From positions 248,001 to 312,000 of the forward strand of contig JAAVTG010000315.1 in assembly GCA_011947345.1 (NCBI GenBank): a stretch of 64,000 bases of DNA, given 5' to 3'. Under the pieces are notes generated by a model. It saw only the letters and a program-made list of their open reading frames with translations. It was not told the DNA's origin and made no database searches. Both the position numbers and the translations under genes were made by a program. How positions within the stretch are numbered: position 1 is the stretch's first letter; every line of letters begins with the position of its first letter. This document shows, piece by piece, positions 3,537 through 37,916 of this stretch. The DNA is from Phytophthora quininea. Taxonomy: Eukaryota > Oomycota > Peronosporomycetes > Peronosporales > Peronosporaceae.

Positions 3537-4596
3537 GTCTATCGAGCCCGTAATGAGCAAATCGATGACGCCTCGCCGCTTGGTATCCGGCTGGATTGGA
3601 CTGTGCTTTGAGCTCCGTGCGAACCAACGCCATCACTTGAGATCGGCTGCAGACGTGGTGGCTTTCACAGCGTTTAGCATCGCGGCTGGAAGAGAATTGA
3701 CTGCAGAACCGCTCAGCGCTTTCATCAGCAGGGGGTGCAGGGCATCGGAGCCACATTGTCGGCCGATATAGAGCTTGCGGCTGTCCATTTTGCTTACCAC
3801 ACTTGCGCTGCGGGACACGCGGACCGCCATCATCAACAGCACCACCAGCTGCGACGCTCGTTGTGATTGTGCCGAAGAAGCGGATCATGGATGAGCCAGG
3901 CAGCAACAATTGGGGGCATCCTTGCTGGCGCTGCGGTGTAATGGTGGCGAGCAGTTGGAACGCTCGACAGCCGTCGGGCTATTCGGATGCGAAGGCAGCT
4001 TTCAAGTCCCTGCGGTATTTCGTGCTCGAGCAGCCGAAAGCGACCAAAATGGAGGCCGCCGTGTTGATGGCGCCGCTTGGTGTGTCGCTGTGCACTGCCA
4101 TAAACGACTTCGACACGACTACCGGAAGCTGCTTCGGTCGATATATTATATTTGACGCAGAATATCCAGGCGGCAATTCATCGCGAAGACGTCCTTCATC
4201 ATGAGGAGCGTCTTCGCAATGGCGGCTCCATGTCGTCCATACACTGCTGCAACATCAACGTGACCGATTACGGGTCTGCGGGGCATGCACGTACGTGCTG
4301 CCCGAAGCCATGCCATCACCATGGCGGGCTTGCCTGGTCTGGGTTGGATGCCGCTGGAGTGCGGGAACCAGTCACGAGGGAGGCACTTGGATTTTGCTGA
4401 TGGCAAGGCGCTGATGAGTCGAAAGAGCGTTTTCGCTTTGCTGCACGTCGCAAGAAGCTGCCTGACAGTGAATACTTTCTTTTGCGACTTCGGTCGGAAT
4501 GCAGCACGAACATGACGGCACTTTCATGAAAATGCTGTTCTTACGGCTCCTTAACACAAACATGCAGTCGACACACAATCGCTATCCAGCAACCGG
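3537..4596. other. Intergenic spacer between PDR copies 1 and 2
   Basis: About 1.06 kb separates the 5' end of PDR copy 1 from the stop codon of copy 2. Short open frames occur on both strands, but none shows a recognisable domain or composition typical of its neighbours. It should hold the promoter of copy 1 and the 3' UTR of copy 2. I see no other structure. Confidence 0.5.
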
Positions 4597-7500
4597 CTAG
4601 CGCTTGAGGTGGTTGATGTAGCGCAGCGAGAGCAGCGCCAGCACCCGGAAGACCACCACCAAGATAAGCAGGATCATGACGTTCCGCCAAATGTCGCCGT
4701 GCTTCATGTCGAACGTGTCCTCGACGTACTCCTTCAAGGTCAGGTCTCTGAACGTGGGCGGCGCGTCCTTCAGCGTTTTGCAGCTGTCGTGGTCTCCGTT
4801 GGGGTCTGAGCAGTCGGCAAAGACCAACGAGGCGAGGATTGCAACAGTGTACGTGGGCGGCGAGATCCAGTGGACCCACTTGTACCCCGCCGGAATGCTG
4901 CCGGCGGGCGGGTTGAAGCCGGTGAATAACATGAAGATGGAGTTCAAGAGCGCGCCGAGGGCGGTGGCCACCGCGACACTGGGCAGCGCGTACACCAACA
5001 GCTGACCGAGGTACACGAACTGCAGCGTATTCGTGGAGACCACCAACCAGTAGTAGAAGAACGTGGAGTATCCTGTGAAGCCGACGCTCGGATAGAAGAT
5101 GATGCAGAACAGCAGGCACGACAAGAACACGTACGGGATCTCGGCCAGCGTGCCCGCTACGAAATACCACAACGCGTTGTACGTCTCGGATGAGCGCTCG
5201 CGGTAAAAGGCAGTGCGTTCGTCGGCAGCTATTGGCATGACGCTGTTGAAGCCGATGAGACCAAGGAAGATCGAACTCACGAAGATCAGACCCACGCCGG
5301 TATTCGCCCCACTATATGTGGTGTAGTCGGTGCCTTGGTAAATGATGGCGAAGATGACCGCCAACAAGATGCAGATCATCAGACGAGTCAGATTGTACGT
5401 CGGGGTGCGCCAGTACATGCGGAAGAAGCGGAGGCACAGCAGGTAAAACTGCGTGTACGGGTTTGACGCGCGCTTCCGGTCGAACTTCAGCTCCGGCAGG
5501 TGCGCCGACGGATGCAACACGCCGTCCTGGTCCAGATCCTCCTCCATCAACACCTTCTGGTCGCTCACCAAAAACCGTTCCGCGAAATCGAGCGGCTGCG
5601 AGTTGTCACCACCAGCCTTGCCACCACCGACACCAGCGCCGATACACTCGAGCATCCACGTGGCCGGGTTGTATCCAGGGTGATCGGCTTCACGTCCGGG
5701 AAGGCCTGGAAGTAGTCGATGAGGTTCTGCGAGTCCTTGCCGAGTTCACCAAAGAAGACCATGCGGCCGCCGCGACGCAACAGCAGCAACGAGTCAAACA
5801 GGTTGAAGACCTCGGTGCTGGGCTGGTGGATCGTGCAGACGATGGTGCGGCCCGAGTCGGCGATCTTGCGCACGCCGTTCATGATGAGCTTGGCGGAGCG
5901 CGCGTCCAGGCCGCTCGTGGGCTCGTCCATGAAGATGATGCTGGGCTGCGCCGCCAGCTCCACGCCGATGGTCACGCGCTTCATCTGCTCGGTGGACGAT
6001 CCGCGGATGATCTTGTCGGCGATAGGTCCGAGTTCTAGCAGCTCAATGCACTCCTCGACGGACTCCATCTTCTGAGCGGTGGAGATGCTGGCGTCCTGAC
6101 GCAGCATGGCCGAGAAGATGAGAGCCTCGCGAACCGTGGCCGAGTCGGAGTGGATGTCCATCTGCTCGCAGTATCCCGTGCATCGGCGCACGGCGAGGTC
6201 GTTGGCCGGGTGTCCATTGAGCAAGATCTTGCCTCGGATTTTGCCTCCGGTCTTGCGTCCGGCGATGACGTCCATGAGGGTAGTCTTGCCAGCGCCAGAG
6301 GACCCCATGAGCGCGGTCATCGTTCCGGGCAGCGCGAATCCAGATACACCCTTGAGCAGATCAATATCTTCGTTGGTGGTGCTGCCCGGTAGAGGTACCG
6401 AATACCATAAATCCGCGAATGCGAGGGTGACCGGAAGAGAAATGCCACGGCCGGTAGGTTCAACGGGGACGCTGATAGTGGGGACACCGCCCATAATGTC
6501 TTCCACGTCGTGGATCTCAATGACATTGTCGAGATTATCTCTGGGAGTGGGCGGCATTTTGGCATAGACCATTTGGTCCTTGGCAGCCTGCTCGTCCTGC
6601 TCCACAATAGCGACATTCTCGGGGCTCTCATAGCGCTTGTACTCAAGCGCGAAACAGGAGCAGCCGATGAACAAGAAATACCCGGCGACCAAGTATACCC
6701 AGCCATACCAGATCCAAACGGAGTCAGTCTGCAAGTTAAACACCCCGAGGCTATACTCGCCAACGTTTAGCCCGGACTGAGCGCAGTAGTCGATGCCTTG
6801 GTAGACGCACACTTTGAACTTGGACGCGAGATACTGGTTGACACTCAGCGAGCGGATGCACCACGCCATGGGGTCCATCCAGTAAATCCAAATGAGATAG
6901 TCGGGAATATTGTCCTTGGAGATCAAGAAGCCTCCAAACAGCAAGCAGAAGAGAATGGACATCATCAAGACTGGTTGGGCGATGGTCAAATTCGGTGACG
7001 CTGTTGAGAGGAAGAAGAAGAAGCTGGTGAACCACATCTCACACAAGAATAGCGTGACGAGGAAGACGATGAACCGGTCCGCCTCATTCACATATCCACC
7101 AAACCAGTACGTGATAGAACCAAACACAATCGTTTCCAGCATTGCCAATGGGATCTGAGAGACCGAGATGGACAGCACGTACGCGCTCGTTCGGAAGAAG
7201 TTGGCTCCTCGTTGTTTGTAGAATACACGACGGGCCTCCATAAAAACAGGGACTTGCGAAGCTTGACTCAGTGAGAGGAATATAGCGCACGAGAAGAGAA
7301 GACCCAAGATGAGTTGGCTGTTAGCATCATCCATCTGCCAGAACGTAGAGCCATAGAGCAGCCCCATGACGATGTTCATGAACGCGCGACCAATGAGGTA
7401 AGTCACATCGCGCGATGTGAGCGTGATCTGACGGCGCAGTAAGATGACGAAGTCCTCCATAAACGTCTGACGAAATGGTTTGACGTCCGGAATCATTTTG

Positions 7501-8957
7501 TGCTCCTTGGCGGGGACAGCCAAGTACTTTAGGGTAGCCTGGAAGATACTCGACTCACGGAAGCGGTCGGCGAAATCTGCAGACCGATATGGCACACCTC
7601 CTGGACCACCGACAACGTACACGTCCTGCTTGTTCGTGCCGAGATCCAACAGGAAATCGGCCACATCCTTGCGCGGCGGACAGTGGAAACCCATCTTCTC
7701 AAAGTACGGCACCGCGTCGAGTCGATTGCCGTGGAACATGATGCTGCCTTCGTTCATCAGCAGCACGTCGTCGAAGAGCTCGAAGACCTCGGGAGAAGGC
7801 TGCAGCAACGAGACGACAATGGTAGCGTTGAAGTTGCGCGCCGCACTCTTGAGCGACTTGCAAATGTCGAACGTGGCGGCACTGTCGAGCCCAGTGCTGA
7901 TCTCGTCCAATAACTGGAGTCGCTTTCTACCGACGAGCATTTCTCCCGTGGTGACACGTTTGCGTTCTCCACCAGACACACCTCGCAGCATGGCATTCCC
8001 CACGACAGTGTCCTTGCAGTTCTCCAGTCCAAGTTTCTTGACCATCAGATCCGGCGCAAAGTTGTGGTGCGCTGTCACGATCTCCAATGCATATTCGTGT
8101 CGTTCTGGAGTGCAGCGCTGAAGAGCTTCCTTTGCCCAATCCTCGAGATCTTTTCCGACACAGCACTGGTGAGCAAACTCAAACGTCTCCTGCACAGTGA
8201 GAGTCGGGAAGTGCTCGTCAATCTGGTTGGCGTAAGCCACGTATCGCTGCAACACTCTCAGCAGTTCTGCTCGATCCTTGCCGTTGTACTCGATGTCTCC
8301 ACTCAACGTGATGTTCTTGTCCAAATGGAAGCGGTTGGCCAGCACCTTCATAAGCGACGACTTACCTGAGCCGGGCTGCCCAAGCACCAGCGTGATGCGA
8401 CCCGGTCGGAACGCGCCGGTGATACCACGCAGGATCTTCTTCTCAATAGTGAGGTGATCGGACTTGCAGACCCCGCCCAGACCCTGCTGCATCTGCGACC
8501 AAATCGTCGGTACTTCGAGCCCGCCGCTCTTGATAAGAGGCACCTCGGCCGACAGCTCGAGGTTTTGGAAGCGCACCTCCATCCCGGGGATGGCGTGGCC
8601 CAGCGCGTTCTCAATGACGTTGGACAATGTGGAGTTCATGGTGAAGACGCCGTTGGCCATGAGCGAGTCGGCGCTGTTGAGGTCGTCCAGCGTGAGGTTG
8701 CGGGGCTCCGGGAACATGCTCACGGTGCGAGGCAGGCGGTCGTAGTCGCCGAACGAGCCGTTGGCATTTAAGCGGCGAGAGTTGAAGCGAGGCAGGCGGT
8801 ACGTCGACATCTTGGGTGCCAAGGGCTTGTCGGGCACCGCGTCGGAACCGGCATCAGTCGAAGGATCCTCTTGAGCACCCATCGCGTCCGCAGGCAAATT
8901 GCAAAGTGAGGAAGGATTCCCAGTGGTGCCTGTGGTGGTGATGGGAACTTGCTCCAT
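4597..8957 (-). CDS. PDR-type ABCG transporter, copy 2 (one-base frame break)
   Basis: Full-length transporter with N-terminal NBD1 (Walker A at residues 193-200, VSGGERKRV signature), six-helix membrane domain, NBD2 (GSSGAGKTT, DEPTSGLD), second membrane domain, and the usual ending LRYINHLKR. The ATG at 8957 begins MEQVPITTTG; the stop is at 4597. The frame is interrupted near 5679, where copy 1 has four G residues (about 180-183) and this copy has three. Codons 1 to about 1092 therefore lie in one frame and the last 350 in another. With that single base the protein would be about 1453 residues, normal for the family. It may be a sequencing undercall or a young pseudogene. It lies head-to-tail with copy 1 on the minus strand, about 150 bp downstream of the copy-3 relic. 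Confidence 0.9.
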
Positions 8958-10990: not shown

Positions 10991-11440
10991 GATGTTTGAC
11001 GACTGGTTCAAGCAGACGCTGCACCGGGTGAATTTTGTCGTTAAGGTGTTCAACGACAACAAGGTTATCCGAGACGTTCATCTCTCACTTTTGTTTTACA
11101 GGAAGAAGATGGAGAAAAGCGAACAGCCCAACCACCGAGGTAAGGTACCGACATACTGGTATAATACCGGTGGCAAAGGAGGTCGTCGTCTTACCGGTAC
11201 ATCGGTTTCATACCGGTTCAGCACCTACATCACAAAGGGCAGATAGAGTGGCTACGGAGCAGGTGCTAAAGTCTATCCCCGCCTTTTCGAAGCCTCAATT
11301 TCCCCAGCGAAGTAAATCCCAGACGTTCTTAGGTCAGATTTGCCATCCTGGCCTGGTTCTCTTGACGTGAGTGGAGTCTAAGCCACGACAAACCACTAAT
11401 AGATTATTTGTCTTACGAATGATGGATTTGTCCGAGTCCA

Positions 11441-11457
11441 TTTCAATCAATTACCTA
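11441..11457 (+). promoter_or_regulatory. Putative oomycete initiator-like element of the mannosyltransferase
   Basis: A pyrimidine-rich CCATTTCAATCAAT block lies just before the ATG at 11460 and is kept unchanged in the second copy (25200-25220 on the minus strand). It loosely resembles the Inr part of the oomycete core promoter. Conservation here may only reflect recent duplication. Confidence 0.25.
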
Positions 11458-11459
11458 CG

Positions 11460-12961
11460 ATGAAGCGCGAGCATGTAGCGTTGGTGTCTGCCTTCTTCCT
11501 GGTATTGTACTGCGTCGGCTCCATCATCGTCTGGTTCAAATGGGAAGCAGTGGAAGGAAGTGTTCGCTCGGCTTCACATTCGGCGAAGCATCTTGGCGGG
11601 ACATTTGCGGATGGCGTGTACCCGCACCACCCGTGGAAGACGGACGAGTTCAAGTGTCTTGGGTGGGTGGAGACTGATGGCGATGGGGACGATACAGGAA
11701 GACGAAGGTTTTGCTGGCAACGCGTTCGCGCGGGTGATGCAGGCTACTGCGAAGTTCTGAACACGACGTCGGGGAAATATTCCACCTCATGCACACGACA
11801 AGTCTCTCGCTGAAGGACGACACTCGATTCACGTGCGAACTGGCCAAGACATTCTCATCCTTTCGGTTCCACGCGTCTGCATATCGTCACGACCCACCGA
11901 TGGTGGTAGACAACCACAACTCTTTCGGTATCACCATGGCTGTCTACGAGCGCGTTCTCCCCAGCGCGTTTGCCAGTATCCGTCGACTGCGAGACATCGG
12001 CTGCACTCTTCCAGTCGAGCTCTGGTTTCGTCACGACGAGCTGGCCCCAGAGAACCCAGTGCTAGTCCGACTAATGAAGAAGTTCGGACCTGTTCATTTA
12101 CGACAGATTTTCGACGAACGCATCCACGGGTTTAACGTCAAGGTGCACGCCGTCTACTACTCGCAGTTCACCAGCGTTTTGCTGCTCGATGCCGACAATT
12201 TTGCGGTACGTGATCCGACGCCGCTGTTCTCTTCGCGGGTGATGAAGAAGTACGGCGCTGTCTTTTGGCCGGATTTCTGGTCTCCCGGGAACTCCATTTT
12301 CAACCTCCACGCACAGAGCTTGGTCTGGGAACTGCTTGGACTCGACTATGTGGATATGGTGGAGCAGGAGAGCGGCCAAGTGCTGGTGAATCGCGCCATG
12401 AGCAGACCCATGCTGGAGAAACTACTGTACTACGCAACCCACAAACCAAATCTCTTCACGAAGCTGCAGTTGGTGTGGGGCGACAAGGACCTCTTCCGCT
12501 TGGCGTGGCTGCAGATGCAGCGTCCATTCTACTTTAACGACGGCCGCGTACCTGGGACGCTTGGAATTGTGAATCGCCGTCGCCACCGCTACTGCGGAAT
12601 GACCATAGTGCAGTACGATCCAAACGGTCGAGAGATTCTCTTCCTGCACCGCAACACGCTCAAACTCAGCGGCCGAGGCGACGACCGTCCGATCTGGCAA
12701 ACGCTGCAGCAGATTCTACCAGCAGAATCGGAAGCAAAAGACAGCAAGATGCTGCCCAAGGTGTTGTCTTTCAATGGCGAGAAACTCTTCAACGAAACCT
12801 CGTGCTTTGGGGTCAAGCGCTATACGTTGAACGCGTACGTGGAGATGACGCCGGTCGATCGCCTTGCGGATTTGGCTGGGCTGGAAGAATCACTGACGAA
12901 GTATGCAAGTGAAGCGTACGACTTGCTCCGTAGAGTCCGAGACGATGATGACATGCAGTAG
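11460..12961 (+). CDS. GT71-like mannosyltransferase, copy 1 (one-base frame break)
   Basis: Type II Golgi membrane protein resembling fungal alpha-mannosyltransferases of the MNN1/MNN2 group (Mannosyl_trans3). These use GDP-mannose to extend glycans of secreted and wall proteins. Residues 7-25 form a signal anchor, and the lumenal domain has the metal-binding DAD motif in LLLDADNFAV. The ATG at 11460 opens a frame that is lost near 11780, after NTTSGK, at a short A run. The remaining 390 residues are open one frame over. The second copy at 23695-25197 is uninterrupted at this point and otherwise almost identical at protein level. The break may be an A-run undercall or a recent mutation. Sugar donor and linkage are inferred from the family only. 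Confidence 0.8.
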
Positions 12962-13056
12962 GGTTCCAAAGTCGATAACTCCATTTCAATCTGCTCTATC
13001 GTGTTGCGTTGCAAAGGTGTGAAACCTCTTGTAGTATTGTAGCCGACATCGGCTAG

Positions 13057-14464
13057 TTACAAAATCTTGGGCAGAATGAGCGACGGCACGCGCTCGCAGT
13101 ATTTCTTCCAGTCTTGGTGGTACTTGTGCGCGCAGCGAGCGTCGTCACGATACGCACGGTCAGTCAGTAGAATAGCCAAGTAAACTGCGTAGAAGTATGG
13201 CGCCGGACTGGAAAGTAGTGCCGGAGCTGTCCAGCAGACCGAGGCTAGCACTTCCGGTACGTAGTGGAAGTGGCGAGATAACCCCCACCAGCCAGACGTC
13301 AGAAGCAGACTCTGCTTCTTCTCACCTGTCTCCGTCACATACTTGGCCACAATAAACTCAGCTGGACGTCCCCATACATTCGTCTTGCCCTGCGTTGCTC
13401 GGAAGTGCTGTCGTTGACGGTCAGCATCGTAGTTGATCCCAACTACAGTAGCACATGTAACCGTACAGTTAGCAAATGAAACGATGGTTACCTTGTCATC
13501 CGGCGACTAGCAAAAGTCAACCAGTTGCAGTTTTGAACGTACCCATGAAAATGCCCGAGAGGAAGATGAAGAGCGCCAACGGAGTGCCCAAGTGGATCGG
13601 ATTCTGCACGAGATACATGGCCGGCGACGTGTAGACGGACGGCACCCACACCAGACAACCCCAGCAGAGATAGTAGCCCGCCCGATCGTGCATGATGTCA
13701 ATAGAGCACATGTATCCAGCCTCCCACCAGAAGAACTTGGCCACGTAGATGAGTTGCAACGCCACACTCACGGCCATCGAGTCGCTCAGATGTCCATAGA
13801 GTTCGAACTGCTTGCACGCGTACGAGAGCACGCCCACAGCCCAGAACATCAGCCCGCAACGGCAGTTGGTGAAGAGCTTGACGTCCCAGCTAAGCACGCG
13901 TGGATACAGCTCCGTGCCCCAGTAAAAGTCGAACACAGGGTTGCCAGATGTCCCGCCATCGCTTGAGGATTGCCACAGGAACGCTCCCTTCACATACAGG
14001 AACAAGCAGAAGAGGAAGCTGAAGACGTTGAGCGCTGAGATGATCTCTGGCATAAAGTCGTAGACGATGCCGCCATTGTACAACTTGAACACAAAAGCAC
14101 CCAGGAGGAACAGCGCCAGACTCAGTGCAAAGCATTGGAAGCCGTTGCTCTTGTACTCAGGCACATTGCCGCCGGGGGTCACAGGTCCGTACGACGTCTT
14201 GCCTGGCACCACGCGCATCAAAACCAACTGCGTGATCATGAAGCTGCCGATGAGTTTCCAGGCGGTGGGGTCCCAGGGTGTAGGCCAAATATCGTACAGC
14301 GACTTGTCTGCAGCGAGGAAGGAGCTCACCGAACCGCCGTGCTCGACGAATACGTGGGTGATGATGGTGGCGGTCACAGGCGTCACCGTCATGAGGAACA
14401 GCGGCCCGAGCGTCTTTCGACCGGGGAATAGTCCCAGGGAGTCCCCCTGCTTGTTCGACCACAT
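13057..14464 (-). CDS. DHCR7: 7-dehydrocholesterol reductase (delta-7 sterol reductase), two exons
   Basis: Membrane enzyme of the ERG4/ERG24 family that reduces the C7-C8 double bond of sterols with NADPH in the ER. Exon 1 is 13543-14464 and exon 2 is 13057-13442. A 100-bp GTACGT...TAG intron (13443-13542) joins them in frame, giving about 435 residues, close to plant DHCR7. Many hydrophobic segments are visible, with the family C-terminus LLTSGWWGLSRHFHY and a basic tail. The frame is open a little further upstream but the first ATG is at 14464. Phytophthora cannot make sterols de novo, yet some species are known to keep this one enzyme, probably to modify host sterols. The Fanzor element ends only about 110 bp upstream and has split its 5' flank. 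Confidence 0.92.
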
Positions 14465-14531
14465 ACCGGAGACTGCGTATCCACTGGCGGGCAAATTGCG
14501 AAGTGTGGTCCTGACTGTATCCAGGGCCAGA

Positions 14532-14550
14532 ATTGTGATGTTTACTTTTG
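14532..14550. repeat. 19-bp direct repeat, left of the Fanzor element
   Basis: The 19 bases attgtgatgtttacttttg at 14532-14550 occur identically at 16869-16887, bracketing the inverted-repeat element. The left copy is 24 bp outside the left terminal repeat and the right copy 7 bp outside the right one. It could be a long target duplication or a repeat made during repair. Confidence 0.7.
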
Positions 14551-14574
14551 CATCGGCAGCCGCTGATTAGCAGG

Positions 14575-14804
14575 CCCGGTCACTGCATTGAAGGGCACTG
14601 CTCCTGACGAAGCTGCATTGAAGGGCACTGCTCCTGACGACCTAAGAGACTATCATTGCGATCTCTACCTCCTACATTGGGATTCTGTCTCCTACACAGG
14701 CCCCGAGGTGGGCCTGTTCGACACCCTGTGGCTTGGCATGGTCCTATCCAGCAGGCCTTCACAGCCACGAAGTTCTGGTTGCCGCTAGTCGTTCGCTCGT
14801 CGGA
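14575..14804. repeat. Left terminal inverted repeat of the Fanzor element
   Basis: About 230 bp that match the reverse complement of 16655-16861, with roughly 90% identity over the core from the tacattggga block to the gctcgtc block. The repeat contains the last codons and stop of the Fanzor relic, so coding sequence and terminal repeat overlap. Confidence 0.85.
14583..14642. repeat. Two tandem copies of a 30-bp unit in the left terminal repeat
   Basis: A 30-bp unit beginning ctgcattgaagggcactg is present twice in direct orientation (14583-14612 and 14613-14642). The right terminal repeat carries a single, diverged version, so the duplication arose on one end only. Confidence 0.85.
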
Positions 14805-16568
14805 AAGCTGGCGGCCTTCCTTGTCCAGCAAGCAGACTCTTCAGAATTGCAAGCATGTTGCGAGCGGCATTGACACCTCGGTTCCAGAAGTTTGCCCGGC
14901 ATGACCTGATTGTGCAGCGCTGGACAGCGTAGCATGGCTTGTGCACCATGCTGCCTTCTTTATCGGGGACGAGTAGTTTCGCCGGCTCCACAAGACCGTG
15001 GCACAGCGAGCACGTCTTGCTAGTCCTGAACTCGTCCAGCGTCACGACCGTGGCCCTCCGCCGCAGCGCTTCTTTAAAGCGCTGTATCGGCACGGGCGGA
15101 TTGCCGCGCAGCCCTCCAGGGTTAGTGAAGGCCCCGTAGCCGACCCACACTCGGAAACTCGAGCGCGGCACGAGGCGGCGTGCCAGTGCATCCAGCGCTT
15201 GCATCTGTCGGCGCGCTCTGAAAAACCTCCAACTACGGAACCCTTCCTCTGCGCTAAAGGCCACCAAGAAGCCACGGTGGCTCAAAAGAATGGCAGGCCC
15301 TGCAGGAACGTGGCGAGGCTGGCTGTTTTGAATGTCGGCATGCTCTCAACGATACGTCGATACCATGGTTCTTTTGCCTTGACGTTTTTCAGCCAGAATT
15401 GAAACTTCGACGTTCCCGAGAGGTGCTGGTACTCGTGGGCGCTGACCGAAAAATATGCTGTTGCGAGCGGTAGTGTCGGTTTTTCGTCGGCGCTGACGCA
15501 GCCCGCGTTCGCGCAACCAGCGACGCCGTCGACGACGCTGTCGAGGCACAACTCTCTCTCGTACTGCAGTGCACAGTGCTCGGAGCCCTGGATCCACTCC
15601 GATCACTATTGACGGCGAATCCCCTTCAGCTGCTTCTTTGGTCATGTCGGTGTCGTCCAGCGTCGGCTCCTTGGGGCGTTGTGGCCGAGAGAGAACTACT
15701 GAAGCTCCATAGCCGTCGGATTTAACAGTTGTCAAAGCGCCTTGTAGCACTAGCGAGCTGTGAGACATCAAAGACCTGAGCTAGCAGGCCAGGTCGGTGG
15801 AAGAAGGCCCTGCTGAGGCCGCCGAGGGGTCCAACCGGACAGTTCAGCACGTTGACACCGGCCCGCTTGAAAATCCGGCTGCAAATGCCGTGAAGAGTAG
15901 AAGGTGTGATGGTTATGTAGCCCGGCGAATAGCTCGTAGTCAATGGCAGCAAGGTGTACAGAGCAGCACCTTTCTGTTCTGGATGGTCGTGTTGGAATGA
16001 CTCCATCCAGGTTAGCATCTCATACGCCTTCTGGATAAAGTGTTTTTCGTTCGCAGCAATTGTCTCTGGATCAGGCGTCAGAACCAGCCACGCACGTAGC
16101 CGATTGATAGCGTCTTCACCTTCGTGTTGTGTGCTGCTTTCGCTGCTAGAAGAACGCAGGCATCCGTTCAGGATTCTCGTTGTCGTGGCATAGGAGAGTT
16201 CGTCGTCGTCTTCTGGAGCAAATCGGAAGCGGATGTACTGGCGCAGTCGATTCTTGAACGTTGTCTTCACCATTGTGCGTGCATTCGTAGCCATGGCGGC
16301 GGCTTCATCTTCCAGGAGATAACTTCTCACTGGCAGATATGACACCAGAGAGGCAATGGCTGTAGAATGCCTGGTCCAGGTCTGGTAGCGGTAGGTTCTC
16401 GCTCAGGCAGCGCAGTAAGTGGAAGTTGGCGAGGTGGGAGCCTTCCAGTCGGATGCCTTGCATTGTCTCCGCCGTCCGAGTGATCTCCTGGACGATCTCG
16501 GGGTACCTGCACACCCTCGAGAGCTTGGACTTGACGGAGGCTCTTGGCTTCTTGCGTCGTCGCGCCAT
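14785..16568 (-). pseudogene. Fanzor (eukaryotic TnpB/OMEGA-type nuclease) relic
   Basis: Fanzors are eukaryotic relatives of TnpB/Cas12: RuvC nucleases guided by an RNA transcribed from their own transposon end. The series begins at the ATG at 16568 (basic start, MARRRKKPRAS). It continues through an N-terminal region with NARTMVKTTFKNRLRQYI (near 16280), a SDGYGASVVL block (near 15720), and the RuvC-I motif VIGVDPGLRALCT (near 15605). A conserved FSVSAHEYQHLSG region lies near 15445. RuvC-II/zinc ribbon motifs LDEFRTSKTCSLCH and CTIRSC (about 15040-14910) follow, then FWNRGVNAARNM (about 14880), ending at 14785. At least four frame changes separate these pieces, and the RuvC-III Asp expected in NRDVNAARN is Gly. 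It is therefore a dead copy. Family membership is well supported by the order and spacing of motifs. Confidence 0.85.
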
Positions 16569-16654
16569 CGATGGAAATCGAAGAATGGCGACAGCGGCTC
16601 ATATAGACTACAACGCGTGGAAATTTCTACTTGTAATCCATTGCAGCACCCTTG

Positions 16655-16861
16655 TCGGACGAGCGAACGACTAGCGGCGACCAGAACTTCGTGGCAGTGA
16701 TGGCCTGCTGGATAGGACCATGCCAAGCCACAGGGTGTCGAACAGGCCCACCTCGGGGCCTGTGTAGGAGACAGAATCCCAATGTAGGAGTTAGAGATTG
16801 CAATGGCGGTCTCTTAGGAGCACAGTTTCGTTAGGAGCAGTGCCCTTCAATGCAGACCGGG
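16655..16861. repeat. Right terminal inverted repeat of the Fanzor element
   Basis: About 207 bp matching the reverse complement of 14575-14804. It lies upstream of the Fanzor start codon (16568), so only the left repeat overlaps coding sequence. Confidence 0.85.
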
Positions 16862-16868
16862 AGACGCG

Positions 16869-16887
16869 ATTGTGATGTTTACTTTTG
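16869..16887. repeat. 19-bp direct repeat, right of the Fanzor element
   Basis: Identical to 14532-14550. On the left this sequence adjoins DHCR7, so the right copy probably marks where the original DHCR7 upstream DNA resumes. Confidence 0.7.
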
Positions 16888-17140
16888 ACTGTCAAGCACG
16901 TGGTTGCGTTGGCACTCGTGTGCGCGTGATCAGTTTTCAATTACTTTAACATTTGCCGTTGTCAACGCAACGCGGCCGGCGCGAAACAACTAACCGATGC
17001 TATGAAAAACGGGGAGTGAAACTCACCCGCAGCATCGCATGGGGGTCCATCGACCCCTGTTTGCCTCATTCTCGGGGTTGTGCTGCTCCTGCCATCGGCA
17101 ATCTCCATCTCCCAAGTGCTAGTGCTGTCGTTGGTTCAGC

Positions 17141-20100
17141 ATGGCCCAGCCGGACTTCACCAGTGCCGATGGGATGCTTGCTGGCGGAACGCTTGCCATG
17201 TACGAAAATGTGGGCTTGACGGTGGAGAAGGCATTGGGGAGACCGATTCCTGAGGTTGAGATCTGCTTTAAAGACCTCCACATCACAGCCAGACTTCCGT
17301 TGGCGAAACCCGGCGCAGAAGGACCGCAAGTCCCCACGATTTGGACGCACGTCAAACAAGGCATCACCAAGTGTTTCTCGCACCAAGACACGGCTGAAAA
17401 AGAGATCCTGCGCGGTATCACTGGTGTGTTTAAGCCCACGCGTATCACGTTGGTGTTAGGCCAGCCTGGGTCAGGCAAGTCGTCGTTGCTCAAGATTCTC
17501 AGCGGTCGATTCCCCATGGACAAGACTATCGCGGTTTCTGGAGACATCACGTACAATGGGCGACCACGAGCAGAATTGCTGTCTCGCTTGCCGCGTTTCG
17601 TCGGATATACCAACCAAAAGGACGACCATTACCCACTGCTCACCGTTAAAGAGACCTTTGACTTTGCCCACGCGTGTTGTGGTGGTGCCGGACTCGAACC
17701 GTGGGTTCTCAAGGCGCTGCACAATTGTTCAGGAGAGCAATATGAGAACGCAGTCAAAGTGATGACAGCTATGCACACATTCGCCGCAGATCTCCGTGTC
17801 AAAACGCTCGGATTGGAGAAATGCAAGGACACTGTCGTGGGCAATGCCATGATTCGAGGAGTATCCGGTGGAGAGCGCAAGCGAGTCACCACCGGCGAAA
17901 TGACTTTCGGACGCAAACGAGCGATGTTGCTGGACGAGATCAGTACCGGACTCGACGCAGCCACAACGTACGACATCGTCAACTCCCTCAAGAGTTTGAC
18001 GCGCCACTTGAAATCGAATATCGTGGTCTCGCTGTTGCAGCCTCCGCCCGAGGTCTTCAACCTGTTCGACGACATCTTGATCCTCAATAGCGGTCGTATC
18101 ATGTACCATGGTCCTCGCGAGCAAGTCCAAGAGTACTTTGAGCTCATGGGGTTCCGCTGTCCTCCACGGAAGGATGTGGCCGACTTTCTTCTGGATTTGG
18201 GGACGGACAAGCAGCACACGTACGTCGATGAGAGCTTGACCGGTGGTAGCATTCCTTTCGAGTCCTCCGACTTCGCTGATCGCTTCCGCCACTCCGATAT
18301 TTACAAAGCGACTCTGAGTTACATGGCTGCCCGCGGAAACAGCTACACCCAAGACTGGGATCCGATGGAGGACCCACGCATCTACCGTCAGTCGTTTCTG
18401 GAGGACCTGAAGACACTTTTCCGCCGGCAGATGAAGCTCAAACTACGCGACCGAACCTTCCTGATCGGTCGTGGCTTTATGGTCTTGATCATGGGGATGC
18501 TGTACGGCTCCACGTTCTGGCAGATGAACGACGCCAACAGTCAGCTCATTCTCGGCTTGCTGTTCTCCTGCACCATGTTCCTCTCGATGGGTCAGGCAGC
18601 ACAACTTCCGACGTTCATGGAGGCTCGCAGCGTCTTCTACAAGCAGCGAGGCGCCAATTTCTTCCGATCGGCGGCGTACGTGCTCTCCTCGTCAATCACC
18701 CAGATCCCGTTCGCCATCATGGAAACGATTCTGTTTGGGTCGATCGTGTACTGGATGGGAGGCTACGTCGCACTCGCCGACCGCTTCGTCTCGTTCCTCG
18801 TCACGCTGTTCCTGTGCCAGATGTGGTTCACCAGCTTCTTCTTCTTCATCTCGTCCGCCGCGCCGAGCATCACGATCGCCCAACCACTCATGATGGTCTC
18901 CATCCTCTTCTTCGTCATGTTCGGCGGCTTCTTGCTCCGAAAGACCGACATCCCCGACTATTTCATCTGGTTTTACTGGATCGACTCGGTCGCGTGGAGT
19001 ATCCGCTCGTTGAGTATCAATCAGTACCTGGCGCCGAAGTTCGACGTCTGCATGTACGGCAAAATCGACTACTGCGCTCGCTTTGGGACGACGTTCGGCA
19101 AGTACAGCTTAAAGTTGTCAGGCCTGCCAACCGAAGCCGCTTGGATCTACTTGGGTTGGCTGTACTTCGTCTGCGGGTACGTTGTGCTGGTCGTCGCTGC
19201 GACGCTCGTGCTCGAATACAAGCGCTACGAAAGCCCCGAAAGCACGACCGTCGTGCAAGCAGACCTCGAAGCTGATACTCCAACAGACCCTGCACAAGCC
19301 TCGAGCAAAGTGGCACCGGAAACTGTCGCCGCCATTCCCGTTCAAACGCCGAGAACGAGAGCGCCTCCTGTCACCTTGGCCTTCCACGATCTCTGGTACT
19401 CGGTGCCGATGCCCGGCGGCAAGAAGGGAGAGGACATCGACCTGCTTCAAGGAGTGTCTGGGTACGCTCGACCAGGAACGATGACCGCTCTCATGGGGTC
19501 CTCCGGCGCTGGCAAAACCACTCTGATGGACGTCATTGCCGGCCGAAAGACTGGCGGTAAAATCCGAGGCAAGATCCTACTCAACGGGTTCCCCGCCAAC
19601 GACCTCGCTGTGCGTCGATGCACGGGGTACTGCGAGCAGATGGACATCCACTCTGAGTCGGCCACCATCCGTGAGGCTCTCGTGTTTTCAGCCATGCTGC
19701 GGCAGAATGCCAGCGTCTCTTTCGAAGAGAAGATGGAGTCCGTGGACGAATGTATCACGCTGCTAGAGCTCGGGTCTATCGCCGACAAGATCATCCGAGG
19801 GTCATCTACCGAGCAGATGAAGCGTCTGACCATCGGCGTGGAGCTCGTCGCGCAGCCCAGCATCATCTTCATGGACGAGCCCACGAGCGGCCTGGACGCG
19901 CGCTCCGCCAAGCTCATCATGAACGGCGTGCGCAAGATCGCCAACTCTGGTCGCACCATCGTCTGCACGATCCACCAGCCCAGCTCCGAGGTCTTCAGCT
20001 TCTTCGATTCGCTGTTGCTGCTCCGTCGTGGCGGTCGAGTCGTTTTCTTCGGCGAACTAGGAGAGGAGTCCAGCAATCTCATCGAGTACTTCCAAGCCGC

Positions 20101-21190
20101 ACCGGGCGTGACTCCGATCGAGCCTGGATACAACCCAGCCACATGGATGCTCGAGTGCATTGGCGCTGGTGTCGGTGGCGGCGCTACCAACGGCATGGAT
20201 TTCGCCGAACACTTTTTGAAGAGCGATCTGAAGGCCCAGATGGACAGGAACTTGGACAAGGACGGCGTTCTGCGGCCTTCGACGAGCTTGCCCGAGCTCA
20301 AATTCTCCAAGCAATTCGCGTCCACACCGCTCACTCAGTTCCAGCTGCTGTGCCGTCGGTTCTTCCACATGTACTGGCGCACGCCCACGTACAACCTCAC
20401 GCGCTTGATGGTCAGCGTCATGTTGGGCGCGATCCTCGGCGTGATCTACCAGGCCACCGACTACACCACTTTCACGGGAGCAAACGCCGGCGTCGGACTC
20501 GTCTTCATCAGCACCGTCTTCCTGGGAATCATCGGCTTCAACAGCGTCATGCCCGTCGCAGCGGAGGAGCGAACTGCCTTCTACCGGGAACGCGCGTCAG
20601 AGACGTACCACGCGCTCTGGTATTTCATCGCCGGCACGCTGGTCGAGATCCCGTACGTCTTGTTCTCGACGCTCTGCTTCTGCATCATCTTCTTCCCGAG
20701 CGTCGGCTTCACGGGCTACATTACGTTCTTCTACTACTGGCTCGTGGTGTCTTTGAACGCGCTGCTGTTCGTGTACTTCGGTCAGCTGCTGGTGTACGCC
20801 TTGCCCAGCGTGGCTGTCGCGTCCATCGCTGGCGCCTTGCTCAGCTCCATCTTCATGCTGTTTTCGGGCTTCAATCCGCCGGCGAACAACATTCCGACGG
20901 GCTACAAGTGGATCTACTACATCTCGCCGCCGACGTACAGCATCGCTTCGCTTGTAGCCATCGTGTTCGCCGATTGCCCCGAAGCTGGTTCCAAAGCCTT
21001 CGGCTGCACGTACATCAGCAATGCGCCGCCCACGATCGGCCACGTCACGCTCAAGCAGTACGTCGAGATGATGTTCAACATGAAGCACGACAACATCCCG
21101 AGGAACGTGCTGATTCTCGGCATCCTCATCGTCGCCTTCCGCCTGCTGGCTCTGCTGTCGCTGCGCTACATCAACCACCTCAAGAGGTGA
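17141..21190 (+). CDS. PDR-type ABCG transporter, copy 4 (intact)
   Basis: Single uninterrupted frame of 1349 residues from the ATG at 17141 to TGA at 21188. NBD1 has Walker A GQPGSGKSS at residues 107-115, signature VSGGERKRVTTGE near 240 and LLDEISTGLD. Membrane domain 1 follows (about residues 430-680), then NBD2 with GSSGAGKTT, a degenerate signature RGSSTEQMKRLTIG, FMDEPTSGLD, and membrane domain 2 ending LRYINHLKR. It lacks the N-terminal 100 residues seen in copy 2, so either the start is truly shorter or an upstream exon is missed. It is an intact paralogue of the minus-strand array at 1-9.9 kb, in the opposite orientation and separated by the effector, mannosyltransferase, DHCR7 and Fanzor region. 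The role is ATP-driven export; the substrate is unknown. Confidence 0.95.
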   Translation: MAQPDFTSADGMLAGGTLAMYENVGLTVEKALGRPIPEVEICFKDLHITARLPLAKPGAEGPQVPTIWTHVKQGITKCFSHQDTAEKEILRGITGVFKPTRITLVLGQPGSGKSSLLKILSGRFPMDKTIAVSGDITYNGRPRAELLSRLPRFVGYTNQKDDHYPLLTVKETFDFAHACCGGAGLEPWVLKALHNCSGEQYENAVKVMTAMHTFAADLRVKTLGLEKCKDTVVGNAMIRGVSGGERKRVTTGEMTFGRKRAMLLDEISTGLDAATTYDIVNSLKSLTRHLKSNIVVSLLQPPPEVFNLFDDILILNSGRIMYHGPREQVQEYFELMGFRCPPRKDVADFLLDLGTDKQHTYVDESLTGGSIPFESSDFADRFRHSDIYKATLSYMAARGNSYTQDWDPMEDPRIYRQSFLEDLKTLFRRQMKLKLRDRTFLIGRGFMVLIMGMLYGSTFWQMNDANSQLILGLLFSCTMFLSMGQAAQLPTFMEARSVFYKQRGANFFRSAAYVLSSSITQIPFAIMETILFGSIVYWMGGYVALADRFVSFLVTLFLCQMWFTSFFFFISSAAPSITIAQPLMMVSILFFVMFGGFLLRKTDIPDYFIWFYWIDSVAWSIRSLSINQYLAPKFDVCMYGKIDYCARFGTTFGKYSLKLSGLPTEAAWIYLGWLYFVCGYVVLVVAATLVLEYKRYESPESTTVVQADLEADTPTDPAQASSKVAPETVAAIPVQTPRTRAPPVTLAFHDLWYSVPMPGGKKGEDIDLLQGVSGYARPGTMTALMGSSGAGKTTLMDVIAGRKTGGKIRGKILLNGFPANDLAVRRCTGYCEQMDIHSESATIREALVFSAMLRQNASVSFEEKMESVDECITLLELGSIADKIIRGSSTEQMKRLTIGVELVAQPSIIFMDEPTSGLDARSAKLIMNGVRKIANSGRTIVCTIHQPSSEVFSFFDSLLLLRRGGRVVFFGELGEESSNLIEYFQAAPGVTPIEPGYNPATWMLECIGAGVGGGATNGMDFAEHFLKSDLKAQMDRNLDKDGVLRPSTSLPELKFSKQFASTPLTQFQLLCRRFFHMYWRTPTYNLTRLMVSVMLGAILGVIYQATDYTTFTGANAGVGLVFISTVFLGIIGFNSVMPVAAEERTAFYRERASETYHALWYFIAGTLVEIPYVLFSTLCFCIIFFPSVGFTGYITFFYYWLVVSLNALLFVYFGQLLVYALPSVAVASIAGALLSSIFMLFSGFNPPANNIPTGYKWIYYISPPTYSIASLVAIVFADCPEAGSKAFGCTYISNAPPTIGHVTLKQYVEMMFNMKHDNIPRNVLILGILIVAFRLLALLSLRYINHLKR

Positions 21191-22854: not shown

Positions 22855-23620
22855 TTGCTTTTGGGCCATGAGGTTACGGCGCGCAGACAGGGCAACGTAA
22901 CTGTCAAAAGTCGACGAGACGGCAGCGTGTTTGGCAGACTCTGCCTGGCAGTTGATCCATGCGCTTTTGCAGCTAGACTTGTTGCTTGCACCGGGTGGCT
23001 CAAGCATCTGTACGCGACATCAACTCTGCTTAGTATTTGTCGTGGTGCAGAACGTCAAGAAGCAGAGCTGTCTGCGAAATTGTCTTGGCCGTGCAGGACG
23101 CAGCATGGTGAGTCTTTATGGCTTTGTTCGGCCGCCGTGATGCCATTTGCAACGAAAATGATGCACATCGACGATCGATGCAAAGTACGCAAGTGCTGGT
23201 CTGACTGCCAGCCAAAACAACTCGGCAACACGTAGAATGGTCGACGATAAAGTTTGTCATAAAGCCCTTGGCCGCCACTGCCAGCTTCAAACTGCCCAGC
23301 GTCAAGATCAACAAACGGCAACGTGAACAGGGCGACGAGCTTTGCCAGGCGGCAACAAGGATCTGTGTCGAAACTGTGTGCTGCGGTTCGAGATATCGCG
23401 CGCCACGATTGGGCGAGCAGAAAATCATTCGAACTCGAAACGCTGAGGCTTTGTCTGACTTTTCCGCAACGGCCGGCCGACCTCTACGAGTGCGAAACGA
23501 GTTGCAGGGGCAACCATGGCTTGCACTCGGTCAACACCGGAAGTAGACGACAGTTTTGAAGCTGTTGCTTCCGCTTGCGCTGTCGTGGGCAGCTCGTCGC
23601 AGTAGTTTCGACTGCGTCGC
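22855..23620. other. Intergenic region with no recognised feature
   Basis: Nearly 800 bp between the kinase 5' flank and the 3' end of the inverted duplication. Short frames of up to about 130 codons exist on both strands, but none has a domain or motif I recognise and none looks conserved elsewhere in the window. Confidence 0.5.
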
Positions 23621-23623
23621 GTG

Positions 23624-25282
23624 TACAATACTACAAGGCCTTGCACACCTTCGCAAAGCAACACGATCCATCAACTGAATGGAAAATATCGACTTTACTG
23701 CATGTCATCATCGTCTCGGACTCTACGGAGCAAGTTGTACGCTTCACTTGCATACTTCGTCAGTGATTCTTCCAGCCCAGCCAAATCCGCAAGGCGATCG
23801 ACCGGCGTCATCTCCACGTACGCGTTCAACGTATAGCGCTTGACCCCAAAGCACGAGGTTTCGTTGAAGAGTTTCTCGCCATTGAAAGACAACACCTTGG
23901 GCAGCATCTTGCTGTCTTTTGCTTCCGATTCTGCTGGTAGAATCTGCTGCAGCGTTTGCCAGATCGGACGGTCGTCGCCTCGGCCGCTGAGTTTGAGCGT
24001 GTTGCGGTGCAGGAAGAGAATCTCTCGACCGTTTGGATCGTACTGCACTATGGTCATTCCGCAGTAGCGGTGGCGACGGCGATTCACAATTCCAAGCGTC
24101 CCTGGCACGCGGCCGTCGTTAAAGTAGAATGGACGCTGCATCTGCAGCCACGCCAAGCGGAAGAGGTCCTTGTCGCCCCACACCAACTGCAGCTTCGCGA
24201 AGAGATTTGGTTTGTGGGTTGCGTAGTACAGTAGTTTCTCCAGCATGGGTCTGCTCATGGCACGATTCACCAGCACTTGGCCGCTCTCCTGCTCCACCAT
24301 ATCCACATAGTCGAGTCCAAGCAGTTCCCAGACCAAGCTCTGTGCGTGGAGGTTGAAAATGGAGTTCCCGGGAGACCAGAAATCCGGCCAAAAGACAGCG
24401 CCGTACTTCTTCATCACCCGCGAAGAGAACAGTGGCGTCGGATCACGTACCGCAAAATTGTCGGCATCGAGCAGCAAAACGCTGGTGAACTGCGAGTAGT
24501 AGACGGCGTGCACCTTGACGTTAAACCCGTGGATGCGTTCGTCGAAAATCTGTCGTAAATGAACAGGTCCGAACTTCTTCATTAGTCGGACTAGCACTGG
24601 GTTCTCTGGAGCCAGCTCGTCGTGACGAAACCAGAGCTCGACTGGAAGAGTGCAGCCGATGTCTCGCAGTCGACGGATACTGGTAAACGCGCTGGGGAGA
24701 ACGCGCTCGTAGACAGCCATGGTGATACCGAAAGAGTTGTGGTTGTCTACCACCATCGGTGGGTCGTGACGATATGCAGACGCGTGGAACCGAAAGGATG
24801 AGAATGTCTTGGCCAGTTCGCACGTGAATCGAGTGTCGTCCTTCAGCGAGAGACTTGTCGTGTGCATGAGGTGGAACACCTTCCCCGACGTCGTGTTCAG
24901 AACTTCGCAGTAGCCTGCATCACCCGCGCGAACGCGTTGCCAGCAGAACCTTCGCCTTCCTGTATCGTCCCCATCGCCATCAGTCTCCACCCACCCAAGA
25001 CACTTGAACTCGTCCGTCTTCCACGGGTGGTGCGGGTACACGCCATCCGCAAATGTCCCGCCAAGATGCTTCGCCGAATGTGAAGCCGAGCGAACACTTC
25101 CTTCCACTGCTTCCCATTTGAACCAGACCACGATGGAGCCGACGCAGTACAATACCAGGAAGAAGGCAGACACCAACGCTACATGCTCGCGCTTCATCGT
25201 AGGTAATTGATTGAAATGGACTCGGACAAATCCATCAATTCGACAAATAATCTATCAGTGGTTTGTCAGGCTTAGACTTACG
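23624..25282. repeat. Inverted segmental duplication, right arm
   Basis: Reverse-complement match to 11374-13042, covering mannosyltransferase copy 2 and its immediate flanks. The two arms are 10.6 kb apart, with DHCR7, the Fanzor element, PDR copy 4 and the kinase between them. Confidence 0.9.
23695..25197 (-). CDS. GT71-like mannosyltransferase, copy 2 (intact)
   Basis: An uninterrupted 500-residue frame from the ATG at 25197. Residues 7-25 form an N-terminal signal anchor, followed by a short stem with cysteines (FKCLGWV, RFCWQRV, GYCEVL) and the catalytic domain with DAD at residues 244-246. An acidic tail ends DDDMQ. The type II layout and DXD motif suggest a Golgi glycosyltransferase of the MNN1/MNN2-like mannosyltransferase family, acting on secreted or wall glycoproteins. 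It is the intact member of an inverted pair with 11460-12961. The effector locus at 25395-26131 lies just upstream on the same strand. Family is likely; donor and acceptor are not shown by the sequence. Confidence 0.85.
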   Translation of the reverse strand: MKREHVALVSAFFLVLYCVGSIVVWFKWEAVEGSVRSASHSAKHLGGTFADGVYPHHPWKTDEFKCLGWVETDGDGDDTGRRRFCWQRVRAGDAGYCEVLNTTSGKVFHLMHTTSLSLKDDTRFTCELAKTFSSFRFHASAYRHDPPMVVDNHNSFGITMAVYERVLPSAFTSIRRLRDIGCTLPVELWFRHDELAPENPVLVRLMKKFGPVHLRQIFDERIHGFNVKVHAVYYSQFTSVLLLDADNFAVRDPTPLFSSRVMKKYGAVFWPDFWSPGNSIFNLHAQSLVWELLGLDYVDMVEQESGQVLVNRAMSRPMLEKLLYYATHKPNLFAKLQLVWGDKDLFRLAWLQMQRPFYFNDGRVPGTLGIVNRRRHRYCGMTIVQYDPNGREILFLHRNTLKLSGRGDDRPIWQTLQQILPAESEAKDSKMLPKVLSFNGEKLFNETSCFGVKRYTLNAYVEMTPVDRLADLAGLEESLTKYASEAYNLLRRVRDDDDMQ

Positions 25283-25394
25283 CGTTTTGATAAAAGCAGC
25301 GAAGTGCTGATAAGCCTAGTCTGCTCAAAAATTGTTGCATCAAAAATGTACGCCAGGCCAGGCTCGTGGTCTTCCTCGACAGCACAAGGTCTTG

Positions 25395-26131
25395 TTAACT
25401 CTTGAGCCAAGCTACTTGTAGGTCGGTACACAATTTCTGCACAGTGCCGGTCATGTCCTCTCTGGCTTTTGGACTACTAAACGAGCGCATTAGCTCGTCA
25501 TCTCCGTAGTGAGCCCTGAAAGTTTGCAGAAGCCCCATTTTGTCGTCCGGGAATTTTTCGTTGAAACTCGTAGTGTACTTGATGACAAAGTCCATCTTGG
25601 GGTTCTTGAGCGCCTCCAAGACGTCATCCGTGTGCAACCAGTCGACCACATGGGCTTTTAGTAGTTTGTTCTCTTTGACTGGATTGGATACCGTAGACAC
25701 GAGCGCCTTGGCCACGGCTTCGTCTCCGTATTTCGCCCTCAGAGGGTTCAGCACCGCGAGGTTTTTCTGGGGTGCTTCTCGAGAGTCTTTGAGATTTTCA
25801 AGAGCTTGCTCTCCAGTCTCTTTTCGCGCAATGCAGTCGTGGCTTCGTCCAGCTTTTTCTTCGTCGTCTTCTTGAGCTTCTTTAGGCGCAGTGCAACCAA
25901 AACACCAGCCACATTTTTGTTTGCGTCGGCTGTAGTCTTCTTCACGAGCAAGTTGGTTGGCTTTTTCATTGATATTAGCGAAAACCCGGTCAGCCCTCTC
26001 TCTTCGTGGGTCCGCAGCATCTGGATATGGGAATTAGTTTTCGGATTAATCGCAGTTGAAGTCAACTTGGAAGTCGCAGCATACGTCTATAGAATAGCAA
26101 CAGCCAGCAGCAAGGCAAAGTAAAGTCGCAT
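25395..26131 (-). pseudogene. RXLR-type effector with in-frame stop in the signal peptide
   Basis: Secreted effectors of this class enter host cells and act there; this one shows the same layout as the genes at 27 and 37 kb. The ATG at 26131 begins a hydrophobic signal sequence (MRLYFALLLAVAIL) that is followed at once by TAG. Past it the frame continues with QMLRTHEERGL, in which the first Arg of RXLR is Gln, then a Lys-rich stretch. Near 25750, at a C run, the frame changes and continues to 25395. That part contains YGDEAVAKALVSTV, DWLHTDDVLEALKNPKMDF and a terminal QVAWLKS, a WY/LWY-type C-terminus. The nonsense codon argues for real loss of function; the second break could be a sequencing error. 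Confidence 0.8.
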
Positions 26132-26970: not shown

Positions 26971-27076
26971 CGCACCGATCATACCGTCTTCATTTTCCTC
27001 TTTTCTTGTTTTTCATAAAGAGCGCTTACCCATATCCGTAGCGTCGCAAAACACAAGACCTTGTTCCAAGGTCTCG

Positions 27077-37817: not shown

Positions 37818-37916
37818 CAAGGTTTCCAAGCTTCAAAGCACTTTAAACGCTATTAAACGAAATGTAGCCATTTTGTGGGTGGTGCGTAACAAAAGCAACA
37901 GTCTCCATCTCTTTGC

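Follow-up and report, generated by a model that had tools for sequence, protein, structure and literature searches.

The window analysed here, 64,000 nucleotides of Phytophthora quininea DNA, probably contains a dead and rearranged copy of a small family of Fanzor1-bearing transposable elements that have a precise 3' end and no fixed 5' end, and in this copy a second 3' end is present in inverted orientation. Fanzors are eukaryotic proteins related to the CRISPR-type nucleases. The inverted repeats and Fanzor motifs on which an initial annotation of this DNA was built are real, with coordinates right to ~10 bp; the apparent terminal inverted repeats (TIRs) are, by the same probable reading, a doubled 3' end whose second copy lies inverted upstream of the gene. 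The unit occupies positions 14583-16855 with its gene on the minus strand, and is neighboured on the left by an ERG4/ERG24-type frame (13517-14566, minus strand; PF01222, 1.4e-40) and on the right by an ABC transporter (17123-21190, plus strand). Its features are:

14532-14550, no strand: 19-bp direct repeat, left of the unit
14583-14804, minus strand: left arm, the family 3' end, with the last Fanzor codons, the stop, a non-coding tail and the terminus CAATG-CA; last 30 bp in tandem
14785-15345, minus strand: Fanzor C-terminal piece, 186 aa, with RuvC-II/III and a C4 zinc finger; Gly at the RuvC-III Asp position
15282-15602, minus strand: Fanzor piece SVSAHEYQHL...FLQGL, frame changed again
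15346-15780, minus strand: Fanzor piece in a third frame, with SDG (15700-15720) and VIGVDPG (15586-15606)
15722-16402, minus strand: Fanzor middle piece, second frame
16305-16598, minus strand: Fanzor N-terminal piece, ATG at 16568
16619-16650 (with the junction, 16619-16660), minus strand: 5' core common to family copies
16650-16660, minus strand: junction of the 5' core with the inverted arm, GTCCGACAAGG
16655-16855, plus strand: right arm, an inverted extra 3' end upstream of the gene, present only here and in the duplicate C328x
16869-16887, no strand: 19-bp direct repeat, right of the unit

Two inverted blocks make up the arms, an inner one of 164 nt (95% identity, 14641-14804 and 16655-16818) and an outer one of 33 nt (94% identity, 14583-14615 and 16823-16855), and these are the only inverted pairs of at least 30 nt between 12500 and 19000. 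The left arm measures ~222 bp and the right arm ~201 bp; in the former the last 30 bp are repeated in tandem (14583-14612 and 14613-14642, identical at 28 of 30 positions) and the terminal hairpin is short of a few bases, while in the latter it is complete (16820-16843). The ~200 bp arm is the 3' end of the Fanzor family: it starts at the stop codon and ends sharply with CAATG-CA. The unit would resemble a TIR element because a second such end was joined to it, inverted, upstream of the gene.

The window unit had been taken to enclose one gene with ordered motifs. The motifs are present on the minus strand (VIGVDPG, 15586-15606; DEFRTSKTCSLC, 15001-15036; CTIRSC, 14899-14916; NAARNM, 14854-14871), but are spread over more than one frame: aligned with P0003, a full-length relative, the pieces run f0, f1, f2, f0, f2, i.e. 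with four frame changes. The Fanzor identity itself has held up. The 186-aa C-terminal piece passes the Pfam cut-off for PF07282 (Cas12f1-like TNB domain) and matches by sequence the Fanzor1 entries of Spizellomyces, Parasitella and Guillardia in the PDB (E 0.0012, 0.0013 and 0.0098, respectively); the Pfam scan of the other three gene pieces gave no match over the cut-off, and none of the four pieces scanned holds a transposase domain, in accord with the initial annotation. When an AlphaFold2 model of the 186-aa piece (pLDDT 73) was compared with the PDB by Foldseek, all six matches at E<=0.001 were Fanzor1 (Spizellomyces or Parasitella), with Cas12f next, and the fold search with P0003 returned seven Fanzor1 chains first (E 3e-18 to 3e-16), followed by Cas12 from 2e-5. 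By Pfam domain, PDB sequence match and predicted fold, the protein pieces of the window are Fanzor1-like. The top sequence and fold matches are the solved structures of SpuFz1, PpFz1 and GtFz1 (8gkh, 9cf0 and 9cer), with ~20% identity over the C-terminal piece; unlike them, the window copy lacks a continuous frame and the third catalytic residue. A protein-database query with the N-terminal half of the sibling C884 passed none of 3729 candidates, and one with the C-terminal piece of the sibling C178, for which candidates were limited to proteins of about 102-325 aa, passed 39 of 279, at 33-61% identity; no close relative of the subfamily was therefore seen in another species in the database.

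Several hallmarks of Fanzor1 can still be read from the pieces. The motif D-X(125,275)-[TS][TS]XX-C4-X(5,50)-RD has been described for Fanzor1 (PMC3627910, in excerpt); the window has the D, a TS ~190 codon lengths on and four Cys, followed by RG in place of the RD that is found in 17 of 18 aligned rows, two siblings included. As read from the alignment, the family has this motif and the window copy has lost it. The traits listed for Fanzor1 in excerpts of PMC10711439 are a DPG signature, a relocated RuvC-II glutamate and a TDG motif in the WED domain. The first two are both present in the window (VIGVDPG and DEFRTSK), and the third is SDG there and mostly TDG or TNG in the relatives. Glu105 of the window piece would correspond to E541 of SpuFz1, on our own reading of the PDB alignment and of the residue numbers in the excerpted text of PMC11423790. 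At the RuvC-III position the window has Gly and the other 17 of the 18 rows have Asp; SpuFz1 D606N stays active, and Gly is not discussed in the excerpted text of the same paper. Four frame changes together with the loss of the RuvC-III Asp indicate that the window gene is dead.

We then placed the unit among its relatives by searching the genome (87.2 Mb in 993 contigs; loci are named by contig). A 231-bp query from the left arm gave 15 matches, i.e. two in the window, two in C328x (C328:48.9-51.6 kb), two on C710 (copies C710a and C710b) and nine single ones, among them C883 and C884, both redundant with the C710b region (99.4-99.6%). The genome thus does contain other copies ending in this 3' sequence, as the initial annotation anticipated, but the element family with ~200 bp TIRs that it proposed does not emerge: among the 15 arms, two enclose one gene only in the window insertion and its duplicate C328x, and elsewhere there is one arm per gene. 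On C710 the two gene-bearing copies lie in inverted orientation with their 3' ends outward. The 5'-region query gave 11 matches against the 15 arms, a slight overabundance of 3' ends. The young part of the family (~1-5% divergence) comprises five long copies, one partial copy and four derivatives of ~0.7 kb, with pairwise differences of 1.2-5.0% among nine of them (C178 was left out owing to an insert). The C178 copy is 97.9-98.6% like the window, and the window, C328x and C178 group together in the tree with a support of 0.98; our conclusions do not use the deeper order of that tree. The ~0.7 kb copies (C328y, at C328:57.7-58.4 kb; C557; C188; C630) have one internal deletion in common, occur with two unrelated 5' flanks (A and B, below), and keep the 5' core without an inverted arm. 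The insert in the C178 copy (L060, C178:8000-17990, at ~5380-7930) is ~2.6 kb long, carries a MULE transposase domain (PF10551) and is bounded by two copies of a 9-bp stretch.

The initial annotation had also envisaged intact relatives. Within the subfamily none was found: compared with P0003, none of the seven long copies is in one frame, neither the young ones (window, C328x, C311, C710b and C178) nor the older C443 and C419, the latter without its 3' part. Frame changes between P0003 residues 453-506 and 560-563 occur in all seven. At residues 453-506 the five young copies have a 1-nt loss in common that is missing in C443 and C419, which are therefore broken differently there; at residues 560-563 the sequence is identical in the window, C328x, C710b, C443 and C419, and C311 differs beside the break. 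A 211-bp deletion is found in four of the five young long copies, the segment being present in C328x, C443 and C419. C328x has its flanks and inverted arm in common with the window, and its retention of the 211 bp would be explained most simply by recombination between family copies. Introns or splicing were considered as the cause of such length differences and rejected: no GT-AG boundary was seen at the 211-bp segment, and a further segment of 169 bp is found only in C328x (L010, C328:46500-55500, at 3690-3858), between imperfect short direct repeats.

Differences by codon position tell of a line that once coded. Between young copies they are spread evenly over the first, second and third positions (5/5/5 for window/C311, 4/7/6 for window/C710b and 8/12/9 for C328x/C710b), whereas the older C443 differs from C710b by 73/61/92 and from C419 by 46/47/47. 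The contrast between C443/C710b and the young pairs argues that the line was once coding and that the young burst occurred without sign of coding, and the common frame breaks together with the absence of codon-position bias suggest that the young copies spread without a protein of their own.

At the ends of the copies, the 3' side is constant and the 5' side is not. The 3' terminus reads ...GGAGCAGTGCCCTTCAATG, then CA in nine of ten distinct flanks (TA in C630) and then unlike sequence, a boundary constant to ~2 nt at ten loci with unlike flanks. The 14-mer TGCCCTTCAATGCA occurs 14 times in the genome (its reversed control, 0 times), namely at 13 family 3' ends, including the tandem copy of the window and the redundant C883 and C884, and in one repeat downstream of C311. 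The hairpin at 16820-16843 stops 9-11 nt short of the right-arm terminus; it also forms in the consensus fold, where it includes one two-sided change. On the 5' side, flank A is found in C178, C311, C557 and partly in C328y, flank B in C188 and C630, another in C710b and yet another in the older C443 and C419, and the window and C328x have the inverted 3' end instead; there are thus at least four kinds of 5' side, and no fixed 5' terminus could be defined. Pieces of the 5' flanks have relatives near the ABC transporter of the window. When flanking direct repeats at nine loci were compared with 300 shuffles, only the window and C328x exceeded chance (reached by 0 of 300), and none of the seven ordinary loci had a target duplication (p 0.09 to 0.99; C710a and C443 are outside the nine loci). 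A search at nine loci for a duplication starting at the 3' end gave nothing convincing. C557 has a 9-mer repeat 1.2 kb away, a length reached in 4% of controls; for its insertion, the sole one tried, no empty site was found, and its 5' flank consists in part of repeated sequence.

The window and C328x go back to one insertion. Window positions 16338-20771 match C328 at 97.5%, which argues that the two are duplicated segments with one common insertion; on the left, the window beyond ~60 bp has no match to C328 in the sequence compared. The perfect direct repeat around the window unit, absent from the initial annotation, corresponds to one of 20 bp on C328; a 13-bp repeat, likewise in the same order, is present there too, and this suggests an original target duplication of ~32 bp. 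A direct repeat around the two-armed unit favours its insertion as a unit, or its formation while inserting. The history of the copies is not simple, since the C328 duplicate keeps the 211 bp that are missing in the other young long copies. C328-like blocks recur four times in the window (11375-13041, 23451-25635, 27067-27317 and 37578-37821), one of them carrying a Mannosyl_trans3 frame (11738-12961), and the region therefore appears to be built of duplications. Elsewhere, C311 (L012) and C630 (L018) have flanks that match at 95-98.6% on both sides of a long and a 0.7 kb Fanzor copy, respectively; the sequence right beside the element differs between them, and a ~54-bp piece of C630 sits further downstream in C311.

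How the copies spread is less certain. As no transposase was found, any movement of the element would have been in trans. A rolling-circle-like movement would fit the constancy of the 3' ends, the variable 5' sides with their additional DNA and the lack of target duplication at seven of seven ordinary loci, and we tentatively favour, at slightly under even chances for the mechanism alone, replication of the family copies in trans by a Helitron-type enzyme. Such an enzyme would act precisely at the hairpin-bearing 3' end and overrun the 5' side to varying extents. The fixed 3' ends, the extra 5' DNA and the missing duplications would follow from this; in the window unit, a second 3' end would have been joined inverted upstream of the gene. 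Helitron proteins are available in trans, with at least 152 matches to Helitron_like_N (PF14214; 150 of 231 candidates scored), some in frames of more than 1000 aa. The nine best matches, spread over eight contigs, score identically, and this suggests that Helitrons have recently been active in this genome. By eye, among the matches listed, one Helitron gene lies within ~6 kb of a Fanzor locus (C598), and rough arithmetic gives two or three such pairs by chance. The canonical Helitron terminus is CTRR, which is absent from the family 3' end, and a genome search with the 14-nt terminus found no autonomous Helitron bearing that end. Against the Helitron-type account stands the 19-20 bp direct repeat at both duplicated loci, as if the unit had been inserted whole.

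That repeat is the strongest argument for a non-autonomous cut-and-paste transposon with ~200 bp TIRs, mobilised by a transposase in trans, of which the single-armed copies would be truncated forms, and the 90-95% identity of the two arms and the inverted pair of gene-bearing copies on C710 point the same way. Other loci, however, carry one of several unrelated flanks, and not an arm, 5' of the gene, the four 0.7 kb derivatives have the 5' core and no inverted arm, and a target duplication of constant length is not seen, the 19-20 bp repeat being confined to the window and C328x and a flanking repeat being found at 0/7 ordinary loci. We know of no cut-and-paste family that combines ~200 bp arms with a duplication of ~19-32 bp, and consider this origin distinctly improbable. 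DNA repair and segmental duplication without any transposition enzyme, fragments having been copied into breaks along with nearby filler DNA, would account for the window and C328x as segmental duplicates, for the flanks of C311 and C630, matching on both sides and differing next to the element, with the displaced ~54-bp piece, and for the kinship of 5' flank pieces to sequence near the window's ABC transporter. Random repair would not yield a 3' boundary constant to ~2 nt at ten unlike loci, and one deletion derivative recurs at four loci, which makes this account unlikely as well. Homing would involve a Fanzor in trans cutting a site that matches the donor's guide, followed by repair that copies the element from one side only, so that the 3' end is fixed and the 5' end ragged. 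The retention of the 3' end by dead copies would be in keeping with it, as would a constant end beside the presumed guide and a variable end opposite, but the ~14-15 nt beyond the 3' end should then match the donor, and the ten distinct flanks share only CA (9/10). Unless copying erases the guide match, these unlike 3' flanks effectively refute homing, to which we attach scarcely any probability.

By analogy, the family 3' end would be expected to be the source of a guide RNA. The guide RNA of SpuFz1 derives from this end of the element and continues for 14-15 nt in flanking DNA (PMC10432273, in excerpt), and the guide RNAs of viral Fanzor1 also extend past the element end (PMC10711439, in excerpt); as in other Fanzors, the 3' end here may encode, or may once have encoded, such a guide (omega) RNA. 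The C178 3' region folds somewhat better than its shuffles (z -2.0, 5 of 200 as good). The consensus fold has a two-sided change in three of 55 pairs and many broken cells, and between 14000 and 17500 nothing in Rfam matched at E<=1. The 3' end was also examined for constraint, as a sign of a working guide RNA, and none was apparent among the young copies, in which it varies more than the body (0.030 versus 0.020 in nine copies, 0.037 versus 0.014 when only the four long copies are compared). Relative to the older C443, it diverges by 11-13%, slightly below the 14-17% of the body. Conservation among the young copies thus lends no support to a working guide RNA. It is highly improbable that the inverted doubled 3' end amounts to two outward guide RNAs, one per flank, usable by a Fanzor from another locus; if it did, the two-guide unit would be a Fanzor element that is palindromic, lacks a protein, tags its own site on either side and is movable as one unit.

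The window element is of a known kind, Fanzor1, with an unusual local structure. Its closest parallel in architecture is found in Chlamydomonas, where Fanzor1 resides in Helitron2 elements that are truncated at the 5' end, carry internal deletions, have captured sequence on the 5' side and keep their 3' ends intact, a pattern likened to the one-ended transposition of IS91 (Bao and Jurka, 2013, PMC3627910, in excerpt). Helitron2 is characterized there by a 5' T, a 5' hairpin and asymmetric terminal inverted repeats. Akin to CRe-1, -2 and -3 of that study, the present family has a Fanzor1 gene without a replicase, a hairpin near the 3' end, intact 3' and variable 5' ends, internal deletions, captured upstream DNA and, at the window locus, direct repeats of similar length; unlike them, it has target duplications at 0/7 ordinary loci (in theirs they are frequent), no defined 5' terminus, 5' hairpin or autonomous partner, and an inverted second 3' end in the window copy. 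The short derivatives recall ghost Spu-1 of Spizellomyces punctatus (Saito et al., 2023, PMC10432273, in excerpt), Fanzor-less derivatives that keep the guide-RNA end region, but those have ~30-nt inverted repeats at both ends, whereas here only the 3' end is constant, the derivatives retain part of the C-terminal coding sequence and the family is known from DNA alone. Inverted repeats around a Fanzor gene are therefore not necessarily transposon ends, and our data suggest, after Chlamydomonas, a second lineage in which Fanzor1 has constant 3' and variable 5' ends, which bears on the enzymes that mobilise it.

Fanzor1 has been known in Phytophthora since 2013 (four in P. sojae, two in P. capsici and one in P. 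ramorum; PMC3627910, in excerpt), and a Fanzor of P. cactorum has been modelled (PMC10711439, in excerpt), so that protein class and organism group are the same here; unlike the present family, the oomycete elements in the excerpted list of PMC3627910 include, in Pythium, Mariner-type ones with TA duplications. In P. quininea at least 119 genomic matches to the C-terminal piece (150 of 160 candidates scored) and at least 75 to P0003 (60 of 278 scored; older and younger fragments together) make such genomes good places to compare living with dead Fanzors. More distant than the window's subfamily are C366, with an open frame of 583 aa that corresponds to P0003 residues 211-742 and its N-terminal part in another frame, C32, with an open frame of 722 aa whose match to P0003 stops at residue 659, and C842, with one of 436 aa. 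The oomycete setting is supported by the 68 database homologues of the C366 Fanzor: every row with an organism name is from Phytophthora, Nothophytophthora, Pythium or Globisporangium, and about nine rows are without one. Four Phytophthora Fanzor-like records (P0007, P0019, P0034 and P0074) bear the label 'DNA phosphorothioation-dependent restriction protein DptG', an apparent misannotation.
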